This document shows positions 1,563 through 34,140 of a stretch of DNA of 38,566 nt, in pieces (the first letter of the stretch is position 1; each line of letters begins with the position of its first letter). Both the position numbers and the translations under genes were made by a program. Source of the DNA: Thermoprotei archaeon (GTDB lineage: Archaea; Thermoproteota; Thermoprotei; Thermofilales; B69-G16); the NCBI GenBank assembly GCA_003649235.1, contig QMRG01000005.1:1-38566 (forward strand). Direction: 5' to 3'. Below the pieces are notes generated by a model. The model ran no database searches, was not told the DNA's origin, and was given only the letters and a program-made list of their open reading frames with translations.

Positions 1563-2861
1563 TTAGCCACCATATATTCTATCAGCTTCAGATTCTAGAT
1601 CGTTTAGGATACTATCCAAATTATCCGGGTTTGCGAAGAATTCCTGGATTTTAGCCCATATCACAAGCTGGAATTCTCCAGGACAAGCATCATCCAAGTC
1701 TGGCACTATAGCATCTGATTCTCTCAGTATTAATATTACCTTTGAATCTATAGGATCATAAGCGTCTAATGGAACATCTAAATTAGGAGCTAGATATCCC
1801 TTCATTTTAACCATGGCTTCCTGATATTCAGCTCCTCCAAGCCAAGCGGCTAGCTTCCGTGCAGCTACCGGATGTGGAGCTTTCTTCGGTATTATGATAT
1901 AATCTGCATTTGCTGCTACAGTTTTAGGAGCTTGGGGATTTGGATTAGGCCATCTTACAACGTCGTAGTCTTCTCCAGGCGTAAATCCGAAATATTGGCT
2001 CATGAAAACGTTAGTGGCGGAGAGTATGAGCCACATTCCAACTTCTCCATTTCCAAGACGTGTAAACTGTGGAACTCCTTCTTCAGCTTCCGGATGTTCT
2101 CCCCAGTAACCTTTCTTTATTAAATCGGCCATTAAAGCAAAAGATTCTTTAACTCTAGGATCGGTCCATTCCACTTTATGTTCTATCAGGTCATAGGTTA
2201 GCTGTGGTCCATGCATTCCAAAGAGGAAAGCCTCCATATACTCTGTTAAAGTCCACTTAGTCTTACCTCCGGCAGCGAGCGGTTGTACGCCATTGGCTTT
2301 AAGAGTTTCGCACACGCTTACAAATTCGTCCCAGTTTTCCGGAGGTTTTAAGCCGTAATTATTGAAGACTTTAGGATTATACCAAAGCAGAGTTTTAACG
2401 CTCATTTTAATTGGAATTGCATAGTATTTATCGTCTACCTTAACCATTTCAAGCAGATCTTTAACCAGTTTATCCTTAAGTCCCTCCTCCTCTAATATTG
2501 AGGTTACATCTTCTATGTGTCCTTTCTTAGCAAGTTCTTTTATCAATCCGGCCCAAGGTATAAGCGCTATATCGAATTGAACCTCGCCTGAAGCGAGCTC
2601 CGTCATTATCGCTGTTCGAATATCGCTCTGCGGTATGTATTTAACTTCTACACCAGTTTTTTCCTCGAAAATATCTAATGCTTTTTCGAAGTTTTTTCCC
2701 TCAACTTCGGCCCATATACCATAAACTACTACTTCCTTCTCCATAGGCGGTGGACGCGGCATATAGAAGTATACTGCAGCTGCTGCGGCGATTATTACTA
2801 CGATGGCAATAAGGAGAGCCTGCATCTTAGTTAAGGCTTTTCGATTTAAAATGATTATCAC
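1563..2861 (-). CDS. Extracellular solute (sugar)-binding protein of ABC transporter
   Basis: N-terminal hydrophobic anchor, then SBP family 1-like sequence (EKTGVEVKYIPQ...PENWDEFVSVCETLKANGVQPLAAGG). GTG start at 2861, with an alternative ATG at 2825. Confidence 0.93.
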   Translation of the reverse strand: MIIILNRKALTKMQALLIAIVVIIAAAAAVYFYMPRPPPMEKEVVVYGIWAEVEGKNFEKALDIFEEKTGVEVKYIPQSDIRTAIMTELASGEVQFDIALIPWAGLIKELAKKGHIEDVTSILEEEGLKDKLVKDLLEMVKVDDKYYAIPIKMSVKTLLWYNPKVFNNYGLKPPENWDEFVSVCETLKANGVQPLAAGGKTKWTLTEYMEAFLFGMHGPQLTYDLIEHKVEWTDPRVKESFALMADLIKKGYWGEHPEAEEGVPQFTRLGNGEVGMWLILSATNVFMSQYFGFTPGEDYDVVRWPNPNPQAPKTVAANADYIIIPKKAPHPVAARKLAAWLGGAEYQEAMVKMKGYLAPNLDVPLDAYDPIDSKVILILRESDAIVPDLDDACPGEFQLVIWAKIQEFFANPDNLDSILNDLESEADRIYGG

Positions 2862-2874
2862 CTTTTGTGATAAT
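2854..2874. promoter_or_regulatory. Palindromic operator ATTATCAC-CTTTT-GTGATAAT, matching the TrmBL1/Tgr Thermococcales Glycolytic Motif (TATCAC-N5-GTGATA)
   Basis: Perfect 8-bp arms with a 5-nt spacer, overlapping the GTG start of the sugar-binding protein. Confidence 0.8.
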
Positions 2875-2888
2875 ATTACATTTTGCTC

Positions 2889-2915
2889 TTATAAACTTTT
2901 CCGAAAAGTTTATAA
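2889..2915. promoter_or_regulatory. Bidirectional core promoter: head-to-head BRE/TATA palindrome TTATAAACTTTT-CCG-AAAAGTTTATAA
   Basis: Perfect 12-bp inverted repeat with a 3-nt spacer, centred between divergent genes. Each arm reads AAAAG-TTTATAA toward its gene. Confidence 0.65.
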
Positions 2916-2987
2916 TACTTAAAGCCCTAATCTCCTAGGTGTTGATTTTGCATTCCCTGTCGACTTTGCTATTAACGGTGTAAAGTA

Positions 2988-5174
2988 ATGAAATTCTACG
3001 GCGTGATTGGAAACGGCGAAACTCTAGCTCTTATATCTCCTAGAGGAAGTATCGATTGGTGGTGTATACCTAGATTTCATGGACTACCGGTATTTGCTAA
3101 AATTTTAAATCCAGCTCTAGGCGGTACATTAGAGGTTTCGGCCTCTCCAACACCTAGCCGTCATGATTTTTCTAGTACCGGGCTTATTCCCGTCAAACAG
3201 AAGTATTTAGAAAAAACTAACGTACTTGCTACAAGCTGGGCTACCTCGTATTTTAAAATTTCATCTATTGATTTTCTCCCATGGAAGAAGAGAGTTTTAA
3301 CTAGATTAATTAAGATTGAAAAATCTGGAAGAGAAATTGAAGAGGCATATATACTGATAAAGTTTTCTCCAAGAGCGTTTTTGAAGAATTGCGAAGTTTC
3401 TATGGGATATGAAGAGTCTGAAGGGATTCTTTACTTCTATTCGGAAGAGGCAGGACATAGTCTCTATATTGCTTCTACTTTAAAGCCTAGTTACCTATTC
3501 ATGTTAGATCCTCGTGAAGATCGAGTTGTGAAAATTGGAAAGAGGGATGTAATATTTAGAGGCGTTTACGGGTTGGATGCATTTATAATTTTTAAAGTTC
3601 CTATAAACTTTCAACTTCCGCTATTTCTAGGGTATGGTGATTACCTAGAGGAGGCGAGGAGAGAAGTCCTAGAAGCTAGAAAAGGGAATCCTCTGGTTAA
3701 ACTAGAGGAAGAGTGTAAGTTTTGGAGAGAATGGCTTAGCAGAGGAGTCAACGTCTCGCTTCCGGATAAAGACTTGGAAGATGCTTTTTATAGAAGTCTT
3801 TTAACGCTCAAACTTTTAACAGATGCTGAGAATGGAGGCATCATAGCTGCTGGAACAACTTCTCTTACAGCGGTTCCTAAACGTGATAGTAACTGGGATT
3901 ATAGATATGTCTGGGTTAGAGATGGTGTTTTCACAGCTGAAGCTTTTGATCTCGCAGGACATCATGAAGAATCTAAGAAATTCTACGAATTTCTATTAAG
4001 ATGTCAGCGATCGGATGGATACTGGAGGCCTCTCTACACGGTAAAAGGCGAAGCACCTTTATTCGAAATAGTCAATCCCGGGATTACGGATTCTCACGGG
4101 CATCTGATCAGGTTGGGCAATGCCGCTTCCTCCCAATTCCAGATAGATTCTCCAGGACTTTTCTTAAGCGGTTTCTACCTCCATTATATGTTGACGAAAG
4201 ACGAAGATTTTCTAAAAAATAATTTAGAAAAAATAGCTAAATCGGCTATATGGATTGCTAAAAACTGGAGTTTAAGAGAAAACGGTATTTGGGAAGAACG
4301 TTTTAAGAAAAGCTACTGGCTATTTGGAAAAGCCGTTTGTTATGCCGGGTTAAAAGCGGCTTGGAAACTACTAGATAGAAAATCTCCAGTAAAGCTAAAA
4401 GAACTAGATCGTATAAGAGAGATAATTATTGAAAAAGGATGGTCCTCCAGTAAAAAAGCATTTGTCCAGAAATTTGAATCTGATTCTATTTTAGATATCT
4501 CTGCTCTCTCCTTAGTCTTCTACAACGTACTAGATGGTAATGATCAAAGAATTATTAAAACCGTGGAGAAAATCGAGGAAAAACTTAGATTTCACAATTC
4601 TTTCCTTAGGTTTGAAGGAGATATTCCTCCTTTCTATCTTTCAACGTTGTGGATGGCGAGATTCTACGCCAAGCTTAGTAATGGCAAGAGAGCTTTAGAA
4701 ATTCTAAAATGGTGCTTGGATAACGCTACAGATTTAAAGCTAATGGCGGAGCGTTACGACCCTATACTTAAGGAGCAAAGAGGGAATTTTCCTCAAGCGT
4801 TTAGCCATGAAGAATTGGTAAAAACTATCATGAATATGTTGATAGATTGGGGAGAGAAGAGAATTAAAATAGCTCCAGCTATCCCTCTATCCTTTTTAGA
4901 AGATGGGAAGCATCTAGTTTTAGAAAATGCGCCGACTCCCTATGGCAAGATATCATTCAACTACTCGTTAACCAATAACGTAATCGAGGTAAATATAGAG
5001 TGTGAATTAGAAGAAGATGTTAAAATTATAGTTTATACTCCAAAACCGCTAAGAGTTAGTAATGTAGAATCTTTAAAGAAATACAATATAAATTATAGTT
5101 ATAAAGGTAATATTGTCGAATTTCCGGCTAGGAAAGGCGATACATCGTTCCATCTCCTGATAGAAGTAGCGTGA
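2988..5174 (+). CDS. Glycoside hydrolase family 15 protein (glucoamylase/trehalase-like)
   Basis: GH15 hallmarks: MKFYGVIGNGETLALISPRGSIDWWCIPRF and NWDYRYVWVRDGVFTAEAF. Confidence 0.92.
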   Translation: MKFYGVIGNGETLALISPRGSIDWWCIPRFHGLPVFAKILNPALGGTLEVSASPTPSRHDFSSTGLIPVKQKYLEKTNVLATSWATSYFKISSIDFLPWKKRVLTRLIKIEKSGREIEEAYILIKFSPRAFLKNCEVSMGYEESEGILYFYSEEAGHSLYIASTLKPSYLFMLDPREDRVVKIGKRDVIFRGVYGLDAFIIFKVPINFQLPLFLGYGDYLEEARREVLEARKGNPLVKLEEECKFWREWLSRGVNVSLPDKDLEDAFYRSLLTLKLLTDAENGGIIAAGTTSLTAVPKRDSNWDYRYVWVRDGVFTAEAFDLAGHHEESKKFYEFLLRCQRSDGYWRPLYTVKGEAPLFEIVNPGITDSHGHLIRLGNAASSQFQIDSPGLFLSGFYLHYMLTKDEDFLKNNLEKIAKSAIWIAKNWSLRENGIWEERFKKSYWLFGKAVCYAGLKAAWKLLDRKSPVKLKELDRIREIIIEKGWSSSKKAFVQKFESDSILDISALSLVFYNVLDGNDQRIIKTVEKIEEKLRFHNSFLRFEGDIPPFYLSTLWMARFYAKLSNGKRALEILKWCLDNATDLKLMAERYDPILKEQRGNFPQAFSHEELVKTIMNMLIDWGEKRIKIAPAIPLSFLEDGKHLVLENAPTPYGKISFNYSLTNNVIEVNIECELEEDVKIIVYTPKPLRVSNVESLKKYNINYSYKGNIVEFPARKGDTSFHLLIEVA

Positions 5175-6229
5175 TGGATATGAATGGGCGCGAAGTAGAG
5201 GAAGCTCTTAGAATTCTTAGATCCATAGGCTTAAGGAGAAGCGAGGCTTTGGTCTATCTTAAAATATTAACCAATGAGGGTATCACAGCAATTGAACTTG
5301 CTTCTGAGTTAAACATACCGCTATCCAAGCTATACGTGATTTTGAAAACGTTAGAAAATAGGGGGCTCATAGAGAGCTATGGCAAGAAAAGAAAAATCTA
5401 CAGAGCGTCAAAACCTGAGATTAGCTTAGTTGAAATATTAAGAGAGAAGGAGAGACGTTTAAAAGAGGACGAGAAATTTATAATGGAATTTGTTAAGAAG
5501 ATTAAGTCAAGTCGAGATAAAATAAAAATTCCTCCTATCTATATCATCAGAGAGAATTTCCTGCCACGTTTGGGCAGAGAACTAAAAACAGCTAAATCTG
5601 AGGTTTTAATAGCCCTACCGAATGATTTCATTAAAGATCTTCTAGATGATATAAAAAGCATCCTAGAGAAAAATATAGTTGTATCGATAGTTCTATATCC
5701 AAGTCCAAGTATCGAAAAAATTCTCAAATATTTAGAGAGAGTAGATGGTTGTATAACTGTCAAAAGAAGAGAAATATATGCTATGGATTTACTGATAATC
5801 GATAGAAGTAAAGCTTTCATCTATTCTCCTAAAAACAGGTACGCTATGATGATAGAAGACCCTGAGCTGGTTAAAGCTATGATCCAAGTTTACTATTACA
5901 TGCTCTGGCTCCCCTCGAAAACAGTATGTAGGAAAACGGTTAAACCTGATACAATGCTAAGCTTTGTCAATATGTGGAGAGCAGTTTACGAAGTCGAAGA
6001 GTTCTTGAAGAAAGGCTATACGGTTAAAGCTTACGTGGTAGGCCGCTATACGAAAAGCAAGAAATCGTTTAAGGGACAGGGTGTAGTTAAAGGAGCGAGT
6101 ATGAGTGATGATAAAACAGTTTTTAATCTCACTATCGACTTCGACGGTAAGCTACTCTCAGTAGGAGGAATAGACGCTAAAATCGAGGATATCGAGGCTT
6201 ATGACCTATATTTAATTCCTCTAAAATAA
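5171..6229 (+). CDS. TrmB-family transcriptional regulator (HTH + PLD-like + C-terminal sensor domain)
   Basis: ALRILRSIGLRRSEALVYLKIL...ASELNIPLSKLYVILKTLENRGLI winged HTH; length typical of TrmB; overlaps the GH15 stop. Confidence 0.9.
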   Translation: MMDMNGREVEEALRILRSIGLRRSEALVYLKILTNEGITAIELASELNIPLSKLYVILKTLENRGLIESYGKKRKIYRASKPEISLVEILREKERRLKEDEKFIMEFVKKIKSSRDKIKIPPIYIIRENFLPRLGRELKTAKSEVLIALPNDFIKDLLDDIKSILEKNIVVSIVLYPSPSIEKILKYLERVDGCITVKRREIYAMDLLIIDRSKAFIYSPKNRYAMMIEDPELVKAMIQVYYYMLWLPSKTVCRKTVKPDTMLSFVNMWRAVYEVEEFLKKGYTVKAYVVGRYTKSKKSFKGQGVVKGASMSDDKTVFNLTIDFDGKLLSVGGIDAKIEDIEAYDLYLIPLK

Positions 6230-17900: not shown

Positions 17901-19445
17901 TTAATCCGTAATTATAATTTCTGTTATTTCGGTCTGGGCTCTGCTAACGACAAGGTCTACGGCTTCCTGAGGCGATATTTCCCCAGCTTCCACCTTAGTC
18001 AATGCCTCAACTAGTATCTCTACAAGTTTACCCCATTCGCCATGCGGTATCCACTCAGCCCAAGTTTTGTCAGTTAATTCGCTTAGCTTAGATAAGAATT
18101 TGCCCTCTTCTACGAATTTGGGTATTCCTCTCGTACCGACGTGAGTCGGCAGTCTCGCGCCTTCTATACAGTGATCTGCCTCAAACTCAGGCATCGTGGC
18201 TAGAACAGCTACTAAGAAAGCTATTTCTGGGTATTTACTTTGGCTCAAAATAACGTAACCGTGAGGACCTACAAACGCGCCTGGACTAGCGCCGTGCTTT
18301 GTGGCCGGATATAGGGAGAACCCTATATTCTCCCAGGCGTATTCCGGAGTTAGTTTTCCTAAAGTTTCATGATATTCTACTCTTTGCCACTCACCCCAAT
18401 GCCAGCTACCTCCCATCCAAAATAGTACTCTGCCGTTTACAAAGTCGGTGTGTATTTTTCTCCAATCGGTAGCTATCATCGTTGGAGGCATGACTTTGTA
18501 TTCCTGCGTCATCTTATAGAAAAGCATGAAGTAGTCGAGGAGTTTACTCTTGCTGATTGTAAGTTTGCCTGTTTCTGGATCGTAGAATTTTCCTCCTAGG
18601 CTATAATAGGGTATCCATAAGCTACCTCCAGCACCTTTTCTGTGATAAATGCCCCATTCTACGAATCCTCTATCCATAGCTTCTTTAGCTATTTGCATTA
18701 TCTTCTCAAACGTTATCTCGCCCGAATTTATCTTAGCTGCGAAAGCGTTAATTTCGTCTTCGCTCCATCCCATTTTCCTAAGGACATCTTTCCTGAAGTA
18801 GAAGACGTGCATAGCGGCATCCTGAGGGATAGTCCATATATGCCCTTTATACTTTAGATCCCACATTGAGCGGGGAACGTCGGCGAAGAATATCGCATAT
18901 TTGTCGTAGTATTCGTCGAGAGGCACAGCCCATCCCATGTCCACGAGTTCGACTGGAGAGTAACCGTAGTCGATCACTATATCTGGAGCTTCTTTCGCCT
19001 CCCAAGCAGCCATTAGCCTAGACCTAGCGGCGTCTTTTGGTATATGCTCAAATGTAGCTTCGATCTCTACTCTTACGTTAAGTCCTAGGGATTTTAGTAT
19101 TTTATTAAGTGTTTCCGCGCCTCTTTCAAGGTTTGTCGCTCTATAGCCCTCGGCTGGCGCGCCGCCACACCAAGCCTCAAGTTTGATAACGCCTTCCTCA
19201 GGGAATCTCCCTAGCAGAGATTTCAAGGCATTATATGCTTTTTCAGTATCTTTATAATTAGATTCCAACTGACTATATTTAGATTCTAGCTCTGAGTATT
19301 TGCTCGATAGCTCCTCATATTTGCTCTTAAGTTCTTCTACCTCCGCTGGTAGAGGAGGAGCTGGCTTTATGAAGTAACCTACTACCGCTCCGATTAGAAT
19401 TCCCACAATAAGAGCAACAATTAATAAAGTTTTTGACTCAGCCAT
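17901..19445 (-). CDS. Extracellular sugar-binding protein with N-terminal TM anchor and coiled-coil stalk
   Basis: TM (LLIVALIVGILIGAVVGYF), heptad repeat KYEELSSKYSELESKYSQLESNYKDTEK, then SBP-like body. Confidence 0.9.
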   Translation of the reverse strand: MAESKTLLIVALIVGILIGAVVGYFIKPAPPLPAEVEELKSKYEELSSKYSELESKYSQLESNYKDTEKAYNALKSLLGRFPEEGVIKLEAWCGGAPAEGYRATNLERGAETLNKILKSLGLNVRVEIEATFEHIPKDAARSRLMAAWEAKEAPDIVIDYGYSPVELVDMGWAVPLDEYYDKYAIFFADVPRSMWDLKYKGHIWTIPQDAAMHVFYFRKDVLRKMGWSEDEINAFAAKINSGEITFEKIMQIAKEAMDRGFVEWGIYHRKGAGGSLWIPYYSLGGKFYDPETGKLTISKSKLLDYFMLFYKMTQEYKVMPPTMIATDWRKIHTDFVNGRVLFWMGGSWHWGEWQRVEYHETLGKLTPEYAWENIGFSLYPATKHGASPGAFVGPHGYVILSQSKYPEIAFLVAVLATMPEFEADHCIEGARLPTHVGTRGIPKFVEEGKFLSKLSELTDKTWAEWIPHGEWGKLVEILVEALTKVEAGEISPQEAVDLVVSRAQTEITEIIITD

Positions 19446-19588
19446 ACTTACACCTCTTTTACGATAATTGTTGTATAATATCTTGAATATATGTTTTATG
19501 CCTAAATACTTAAAGATGATCTGATAAAATATGTTGTTAAAGAAATCTTTATTGCTTAAAATTAATTTTATTTAAGAGTATAGGAGGA

Positions 19589-20692
19589 TTGAAAAGAGAA
19601 TCGGCACAGGGAGGCTGCGCAATGAAAAATCCGAGAAAAATGCTCATAGATAGATTAACAAAATTAGGGTTAAGCATCAACGAAGCCAAAGCATATGAAA
19701 CACTGATAGAGCTTGGAGTAGCAGCTCCGCTTGAGATAGCCTCAGCATCAGGCGTCCCAGTCTCTAAGATTTACCTGATATTGTCCGAGCTTGAGCGGAA
19801 AGGACTGATAGAAGTTCAGCATGGAAGGCCTAAATTATATCGTCCGGTTGAGCCTAAAAGGGCTCTCCGCCTACTAACCGAGGAATATTTAAAAATAGAG
19901 AAAGAAGCTCTAGAGCTTATAGATAGAATCTCTGGCATCGGCAGGAATTTAAATACAGGGACTTTTTGGGTTGTTAAGGGAAAGAGGAATATCGTAGATA
20001 AGATAAGATATCTACTAGATAACGCTCAATATTCTTTAGCTATAGCAGCGCCCGATAAGCTCATAGTCCAGGTAAGTAACAACCTGCAAAACGCTATAGA
20101 AAATAACGTTAACGTCTCACTCGTAATATATAAGACAAATACTAAAACAACGAAGTACCTAGTGGATGATTTCAGAAGAGACGCTATGGTTAAAGTCAGA
20201 GAGATATTGGCGCCCTCCATGTTCATAGTCGATGACCATAAAGCCTTAACATATATCACCGCGACTTTATACCGCGGAATTAAGAGAAGAGAAGAAATAG
20301 CGTTGCTCGTGGAGGATGAGGATTTCCTACCAGTATTTAGCGCCTATTTCAAGTATACTGCATGGTATTCCAGCAAGCTAGTGAGCGATGTAGACGAGTT
20401 CCTATCAAAGCCTAGAACTTACTGCATCTACTTCCGCGCCGTTGAGGATGTGGCGCATCTGCTTTCAAAGGGGATAAAGCCTTTTGCGCGTGTACAGGGT
20501 TGGCATATAACCAATACAAGGGAAAAAGTGGTTTTAGAGGGCAGAATAGTTAAGGCGTATCAGTCTCCAGATAAGACTGTGTACAATTTAACGCTGGTAT
20601 CCGATAATGGGAAGACGTATATGCTAGGAGGGAAGCGGTGTGTCATCGAGGATGTGGAAACGGAGATTATAACGATATATCCGAACCGGTAG
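19589..20692 (+). CDS. TrmB-family transcriptional regulator (divergent from the second ABC operon)
   Basis: DRLTKLGLSINEAKAYETLIELGVAAPLEIASASGVPVSKIYLILSELERKGLIEV. TTG 19589 or ATG 19622 start. Confidence 0.9.
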   Translation: MKRESAQGGCAMKNPRKMLIDRLTKLGLSINEAKAYETLIELGVAAPLEIASASGVPVSKIYLILSELERKGLIEVQHGRPKLYRPVEPKRALRLLTEEYLKIEKEALELIDRISGIGRNLNTGTFWVVKGKRNIVDKIRYLLDNAQYSLAIAAPDKLIVQVSNNLQNAIENNVNVSLVIYKTNTKTTKYLVDDFRRDAMVKVREILAPSMFIVDDHKALTYITATLYRGIKRREEIALLVEDEDFLPVFSAYFKYTAWYSSKLVSDVDEFLSKPRTYCIYFRAVEDVAHLLSKGIKPFARVQGWHITNTREKVVLEGRIVKAYQSPDKTVYNLTLVSDNGKTYMLGGKRCVIEDVETEIITIYPNR

Positions 20693-33015: not shown

Positions 33016-34140
33016 TTATCTGGTAACTCGTATTTCCTCCATTTCCTCTAAGTACTTTCTACCAGCTCCTTCTAAGAAATACTTCCTGGCAGGCTCTAGT
33101 ATTCTAGCCAGCTCTTCTGCGACCGCTAGCTTTAGATCGAGAGGATGTACTCGTCTCTCAGCATAAGCCTCCTCCAGCTCCTTATAATTTTCGAAGACTA
33201 GCCTTTCCCTAGTCTTCTTGTTTACTATCTCGAACGGCTCTCTTCTATCTCTGAAGATTATATACTTGGCTATCTCCAGTACTGGGTTTAGCTCGACTTC
33301 CCCCATGGGACAGAGAGCTTTCTTAATCTTATTCTTAATATCCTCCACGCTATCGTGTATGAAGATAGCGCCTAAAGGCTTAGATTTAGACATTTTAACA
33401 TCTATAACTCCTTCTTCGAACAATTCTCTATTACCGGTCTTCTTAGCTTCTAGCATTTTCCTGCGAGCCTCTTCTGTTATCTGCATGCCGACCAGGAGGT
33501 GATGATGTACAGCCACAGGCTTATAGCCGAACTCTTTTTCTCCAACCTCTAGGGCTATTACATGAGCTTTTCTCTGATCAGTTCCTCCCTGAGCTAGGTT
33601 TACGCCGAGCGTAAAAATATCCGCGACTTGCATCGGTATGTAGAGGAGTTGGGCGAAGGTAAGAGCTTCCTCCATCTTCCTACCCATGATGGTTACGGAT
33701 CTCCTAACCCTAGAGAGGGTAGTCCTCATAGAAACTTTAATCACGTTGCTCAAATAGTCAAGCCCTACTTTCTCGTAGAGCTCGGAGCCCATGACGAACT
33801 TTACGTTGTCCGGGTCTCCACCGGCAATCTTTAACGAGTACTTCAAGGATTCTTTAAAATAGCCGCCTGCAACCCTTCTGATAGTGCTTAAATCTCCTCC
33901 AAGCTTCCTATTTATCCAGGAATGATAATCAGCTAAGAAGATGGTAGTCTCTACGCCTGCCTTTTGAAAATCAGCTACTTTCTGCATGCAGATAAGTCCT
34001 GTTCCCAGATGCACTAAACCTGAAATCTCAAATCCTATATAATGTTTAAGCTTTAACCCTTCATCCAAGTATTTTCTAAGTCTTTCTTCGGTTAAAACTT
34101 CTTCAACAGGCGGCCTAGTAATAAGCTGAAAACGGTTCAT
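33016..34140 (-). CDS. tyrS: Tyrosyl-tRNA synthetase (archaeal type)
   Basis: [38 protein letters not shown]. Confidence 0.93.

Follow-up and report, generated by a model that had tools for sequence, protein, structure and literature searches.

The closest described counterparts of the locus analysed here belong to the TrmB family of regulators. TrmBL1 of Pyrococcus furiosus (PF0124) and Tgr of Thermococcus kodakarensis (TK1769), both two-domain TrmB proteins, recognize the Thermococcales Glycolytic Motif (TGM), the inverted repeat TATCAC-N5-GTGATA, which lies downstream of the TATA box and over the start of sugar ABC operons (PMC4158304, PMC4706686). The motif is defined in Thermococcales, at many glycolytic or sugar promoters per genome, and for TrmBL1 ChIP-seq gave 28 sites at promoters. 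TrmB of P. furiosus and T. litoralis acts locally, repressing the sugar ABC operon next to it, and carries a Gly320/Glu326 signature (PMC4158304); its operator in the trehalose/maltose operon, TACT-N3-AGTA, differs from the dyad described below. The Halobacterium salinarum TrmB (VNG1451C) uses a TACT-N7-8-GAGTA operator of about 17 bp with dual upstream and downstream logic (PMC4158304). Within Thermoproteota, MalR of Sulfolobus acidocaldarius is a further TrmB-family protein that regulates a sugar ABC operon (PMC4158304); unlike the case presented here, it activates, its two ATAATACT sites being direct repeats placed far upstream, and has no such dyad. For Thermofilum, a 2014 review listed four TrmB proteins of unknown function (PMC4158304), and no Thermofilales TrmB operator is described in the open-licence literature searched.

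The window, i.e., the whole stretch of 38,566 nt that was analysed, carries at 2854-2874 a 21-bp perfect dyad, ATTATCAC-CTTTT-GTGATAAT, whose core at 2856-2872 is identical to the TrmBL1/Tgr motif, with zero mismatches on direct reading of the sequence, exactly as the original prediction had it. The window has one exact core, where dinucleotide shuffles would predict 0.01; from base composition, about 0.19 exact cores would be expected per 1.81-Mb genome, and about 0.0016 copies of the extended palindrome with its 16 specified bases. The outer TA and the length of the core are similar to the H. salinarum operator, although the half-sites are TATC and the phylum is different. On the minus strand, the dyad adjoins SBP1, an extracellular sugar-binding protein gene (1563-2861; Pfam SBP_bac_1, E=3.2e-37) whose product has a glucose-binding protein (2b3b) as nearest solved relative, followed on the same strand by an ABC permease gene (711-1559; profile matches to Pfam BPD_transp_1) and by a second permease gene that runs on to the window edge. 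On the plus strand lie a gene for a GH15 glucoamylase/trehalase-like enzyme (2988-5174; Pfam E=1.3e-37) and, overlapping its end by 4 nt, trmB1 (5171-6229), whose product has both domains of the family above cut-off, the DNA-binding PF01978 (E=6.7e-15) and the sugar-binding PF11495 (E=1.3e-39). This is the TrmB gene that had been placed 2.3 kb from the dyad, beyond GH15, and the gene positions bear this out.

We consider, with a probability of about 0.75, that the dyad serves as operator for a locally acting, sugar-responsive repressor of the TrmB family, most likely TrmB1. As proposed from these features, a sugar-free TrmB1 dimer would occupy both TATCAC half-sites, which span the predicted start of the SBP-permease-permease operon, and RNA polymerase would be blocked; an imported alpha-glucoside lodged in the C-terminal domain of TrmB1 would release it from the dyad. 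Binding, repression and ligand are here all inferred; the arrangement would be that of the P. furiosus and T. litoralis TrmB, a local repressor of the neighbouring transporter.

The window belongs to a metagenome-assembled genome (MAG; 84% complete, 220 contigs, 1.81 Mb). Its tyrosyl-tRNA synthetase (TyrRS, 33016-34140) is 95% identical to that of Thermofilaceae archaeon S146_metabat2_scaf2bin.032, a MAG whose matches coincide in place with those of G002, a genome listed in the same genus as the window. We accordingly place the window genome in the order Thermofilales, in Thermoproteota, i.e., outside Thermococcales. The same TyrRS matches structure 7fg6 with 561 bits versus at most 362 for any other structure, and gene transfer is possible for this gene.

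G001 is of the same genus as well. In G001, SBP1, GH15 and TrmB1 are 86%, 50% and 68% identical, respectively, in the same gene order, and the dyad, TATCACCTTTAGTGATA, occupies the same place (L036:4824-4840) with 20 of 21 bases identical, the sole change falling in the spacer. The fourfold codon sites of SBP1 are just 35% identical between the two genomes, so the conservation of the dyad does not stem from recent divergence. One arm partly overlaps coding codons and a Shine-Dalgarno (SD)-like sequence, and could have been conserved for translation; the other, at 2867-2874, is noncoding and upstream of the called SBP1 start. The SBP1-GH15-TrmB1 cluster is found in just two genomes, which leaves a single comparison for the N5 dyad.

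The promoter elements are consistent with repression of the ABC operon. The SBP1 TATA box, TTTATAAG (2888-2895, minus strand), preceded by a BRE-like A-rich stretch (2896-2902), is kept in G001 in both sequence and spacing, and its centre lies 27.5 bp from that of the dyad. From this distance and the usual archaeal spacing (TATA centre + 26.5), transcription is predicted to start on the minus strand at 2864-2865, at the dyad centre, which is the best predicted +1 in both species. The dyad would thus cover the start in a repressor position downstream of BRE and TATA, as in the TrmBL1/Tgr promoters, and the repressor geometry of the original prediction is in this way predicted in two genomes. 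The divergent GH15-TrmB1 transcript has its own TATA box, TTTATAAT (2909-2916, plus strand), some 48 bp away from the centre of the dyad. The two promoters form a 27-bp palindrome, TTATAAACTTTTC-c-GAAAAGTTTATAA (2889-2915), with 13-bp arms and a 1-bp spacer, that corresponds to back-to-back mirror-image BRE/TATA elements, SBP1 to the left and GH15 to the right; this palindrome, longer than the TGM-type dyad, is mostly retained in G001. Viewed from GH15, the TGM-type dyad sits upstream of the TATA box, and by analogy with the divergent PF1538/PF1539 genes of P. furiosus, for which a dual effect has been described (PMC4706686), it may act on both SBP1 and GH15.

The translation start of SBP1 deserves separate attention. 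The ORF caller begins the gene at GTG 2861-2859, inside the dyad arm, in agreement with the claim that the start codon is embedded in the operator. This part of the claim is nonetheless unproven, given that an SD-like AGGTGAT (2857-2863, minus strand), identical in G001 and overlapping the same arm, together with an AUU at 2852-2850, would be an equally possible start; this SD-like reading relies on the archaeal anti-SD core. With a +1 near 2865, the GTG start would give a nearly leaderless message, while the AUU could give a leader resembling those of the N6 family described below. The same sequence raises the alternative that the palindrome is a translational element, in which TATCAC pairs with the GTGATA of the SD so that an mRNA hairpin hides the ribosome site from use at either start. 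The identity of AGGTGAT in G001 is in line with it, and the hairpin folds at 37 °C. No SBP1 hairpin is predicted at 80 °C, however, and with the predicted +1 in the spacer the SBP1 message would lack the TATCAC arm, two points that disfavour the SD-hiding structure at this gene. On the whole we judge this alternative unlikely, although an SD role of one arm and an operator role of the dyad could exist together.

In favour of TrmB1 as the cognate regulator of the operator stands its ortholog adjoining the conserved dyad in G001. Furthermore, alignment to 3qph indicates that TrmB1 retains the sugar-binding Gly and Glu (G320 and E326 of P. furiosus TrmB); these sugar-site residues and the DNA-contact ones were assigned in PMC4158304. 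In the DNA-contact Tyr-Asp pair (Y49 and D50 of TrmBL1; PMC4158304), Tyr50 is present and Val replaces Asp51, so TrmB1 should not be called TrmBL1. The TrmBL1/Tgr label given to the site is accordingly not sustained, Val standing where both proteins have Asp (PMC4158304), and a regulator lying beside its target in a Thermofilales host is a further difference from TrmBL1/Tgr. What stands of the suggested extension beyond Thermococcales is a TGM-type dyad at a sugar ABC promoter of Thermofilales. In the tree, other rows lie closer to TrmB1 than P. furiosus TrmB does, although the latter has a long branch; a chimeric query of P. furiosus TrmB and the window TyrRS returned no Thermococcales TrmB locus, and against plasmids TrmB1 matched haloarchaeal TrmB only.

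Other candidates for the same operator would be the TrmB encoded at 19589-20692, another TrmB paralog or a non-TrmB factor. Such candidates exist, with at least five PF11495 matches in the window genome, and members of the family can also control remote genes, TrmBL1 being a global regulator (PMC4706686). The protein at 19589-20692 had been proposed on equal terms with TrmB1; G001, however, keeps the dyad, yet none of the G001 TrmBs examined belongs to that clade, and the promoter of the SBP gene adjoining the 19589-20692 regulator in the window is free of the dyad. It is thus a weaker candidate than TrmB1. Indeed, the divergent intergenic region between SBP2 and this trmB (19445-19600) has no TAYYAC dyad, which suggests that its clade probably uses another operator. 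Against TrmB1 itself count the Val in place of Asp51 and its nearest paralog (G001, L037), which has no such dyad at its own SBP gene. As the wider dyad family follows TrmB clusters genome-wide, control by another regulator appears quite unlikely.

The local operator proposed for TrmB1 is not accompanied by a TGM regulon. In the 84%-complete MAG, the other exact core (C12) lies in a coding sequence and the three one-mismatch cores all fall within ORFs, so that the broad set of glycolytic and sugar promoters sharing the motif in Thermococcales has no equivalent in the portion of the genome searched, and the anticipated enrichment upstream of saccharide genes was not observed. This is evidence against a regulon but not against a local operator. 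On a larger scale, cores are rare among 398 Thermoproteota genomes and the reversed-pattern control gives comparable numbers; elsewhere in the class Thermoproteia there are about 25 cores versus about 15 for that control, and most cores in the 81 genomes of this class sit in ORFs. A TGM regulon in Thermoproteota is thus rejected, as is the exact core of G008 as an operator, which sits in an ABC-exporter-like ORF. In G186, a distant member of Thermoproteota, six N5/N6 TATCAC dyads were observed, a number well in excess of background; about 130 bp separate two of these.

These class-wide counts, close to those of the control, would also suit a chance palindrome in an AT-rich promoter; this is contradicted by the position of the dyad and by its conservation at saturated divergence, and we regard it as extremely improbable. 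Among the readable places of the 81 Thermoproteia genomes, only five genes for SBPs have an N5 or N6 core beside them (one in the window genome, two in G001, one each in G002 and G023), and all five are next to TrmB regulators. Assuming an estimated six SBP starts per genome, the probability of such an association by chance is about 7e-13 counted as five cases and 5e-5 counted as two families.

The second of these families, seen in G001, G002 and G023, involves N6-spaced TATCAC half-sites just before the ATG of another SBP family, whose genes are divergent from a separate, well-supported TrmB clade unrelated to that of TrmB1. G001 carries both dyads, N5 and N6, and each has a trmB of its own next to it. 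In the three exact cases the half-site continues directly into the start codon as GTGATA-AA-ATG, and G003 has a one-mismatch version. Here too the hairpin alternative finds some support, in the GGTGATA just before the ATG and in the arm change of G003 (TATCAC/GTGGTA), which preserves a G-U pair. No SBP relatives were confirmed by scan in the named genomes.

Other Thermofilales TrmB clusters carry related dyads upstream of SBP genes, namely TACTAC-N5-GTAGTA and TACCAC- or TACTAC-N6-GTGGTA; the TACTAC-N5/6-GTAGTA versions resemble the H. salinarum TrmB operator. The general form, TAYYAC-N5/6-GTRRTA, is present at 13 of 32 TrmB-linked SBP starts, whereas among 354 other ORF starts nine have it (Fisher P=2e-10), these control starts being drawn from the same TrmB-containing regions and not from the random genome; the nine are themselves all located in TrmB loci. 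The complete genomes of G004 and G015 yielded four TAYYAC-type dyads, every one in a TrmB-ABC cluster. Besides SBP genes, such dyads mark the beginning of a HAD-GH65 operon and a treT-like gene that is divergent from a trmB; at L229:3862-3878 of G013, a dyad and promoter resemble the Thermofilum HAD-GH65 operon start without the full gene, which looks like a remnant. Furthermore, TACTAC-N6-GTAGTA dyads occur at FBPase_3 and/or short TrmB-domain genes in the window genome (contig C51, L223:3152-3169 and L223:3311-3328), G001, G002 and G023, the loci outside the window genome being L224, L225 and L226. In G023, a GAPDH gene is also preceded by a TACTAC-N6-GTAGTA dyad (C82, L232:2698-2715).

Dyad geometry is consistent within groups. 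In the SBP-A promoters of Thermofilum the dyad precedes the TATA centre by about 24-25 bp, whereas the SBP-B dyads lie 10.5 bp downstream of it in three genomes. By the TrmBL1 rule, under which the position of the dyad relative to TATA sets the sign of regulation (PMC4706686), we infer an activator position for the former and a repressor position for the latter. For the SBP-A sister dyads, at some 25 bp upstream of TATA, an RNA hairpin is impossible, which argues further against the translational element.

The best reading of the window dyad is thus as one version of the Thermofilales TAYYAC-N5/6-GTRRTA family, to which the TGM half-site TATCAC also conforms. Our verdict is a predicted local TrmB operator with TGM sequence outside Thermococcales, belonging to this broader family. 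With a little less than even confidence, we further propose that Thermofilales TrmBs share the TAYYAC-N5/6-GTRRTA grammar, that the two middle pyrimidines and the spacer of 5 or 6 bp would keep paralogous regulons apart in a single cell, as with N5 for TrmB1 and N6 for the other clade in G001, that position relative to TATA would set the sign, and that the TGM may be one dialect of a grammar used across archaeal phyla and reaching FBPase and GAPDH genes.

Predicted operators, together with their cognate regulators and signs of regulation, are now available for Thermofilales. The targets with predicted regulation include sugar transporters, the treT-like gene, the GH65 operon and two gluconeogenic genes, and the TrmB recognition code becomes testable through paralogs using TATCAC, TACCAC or TACTAC.
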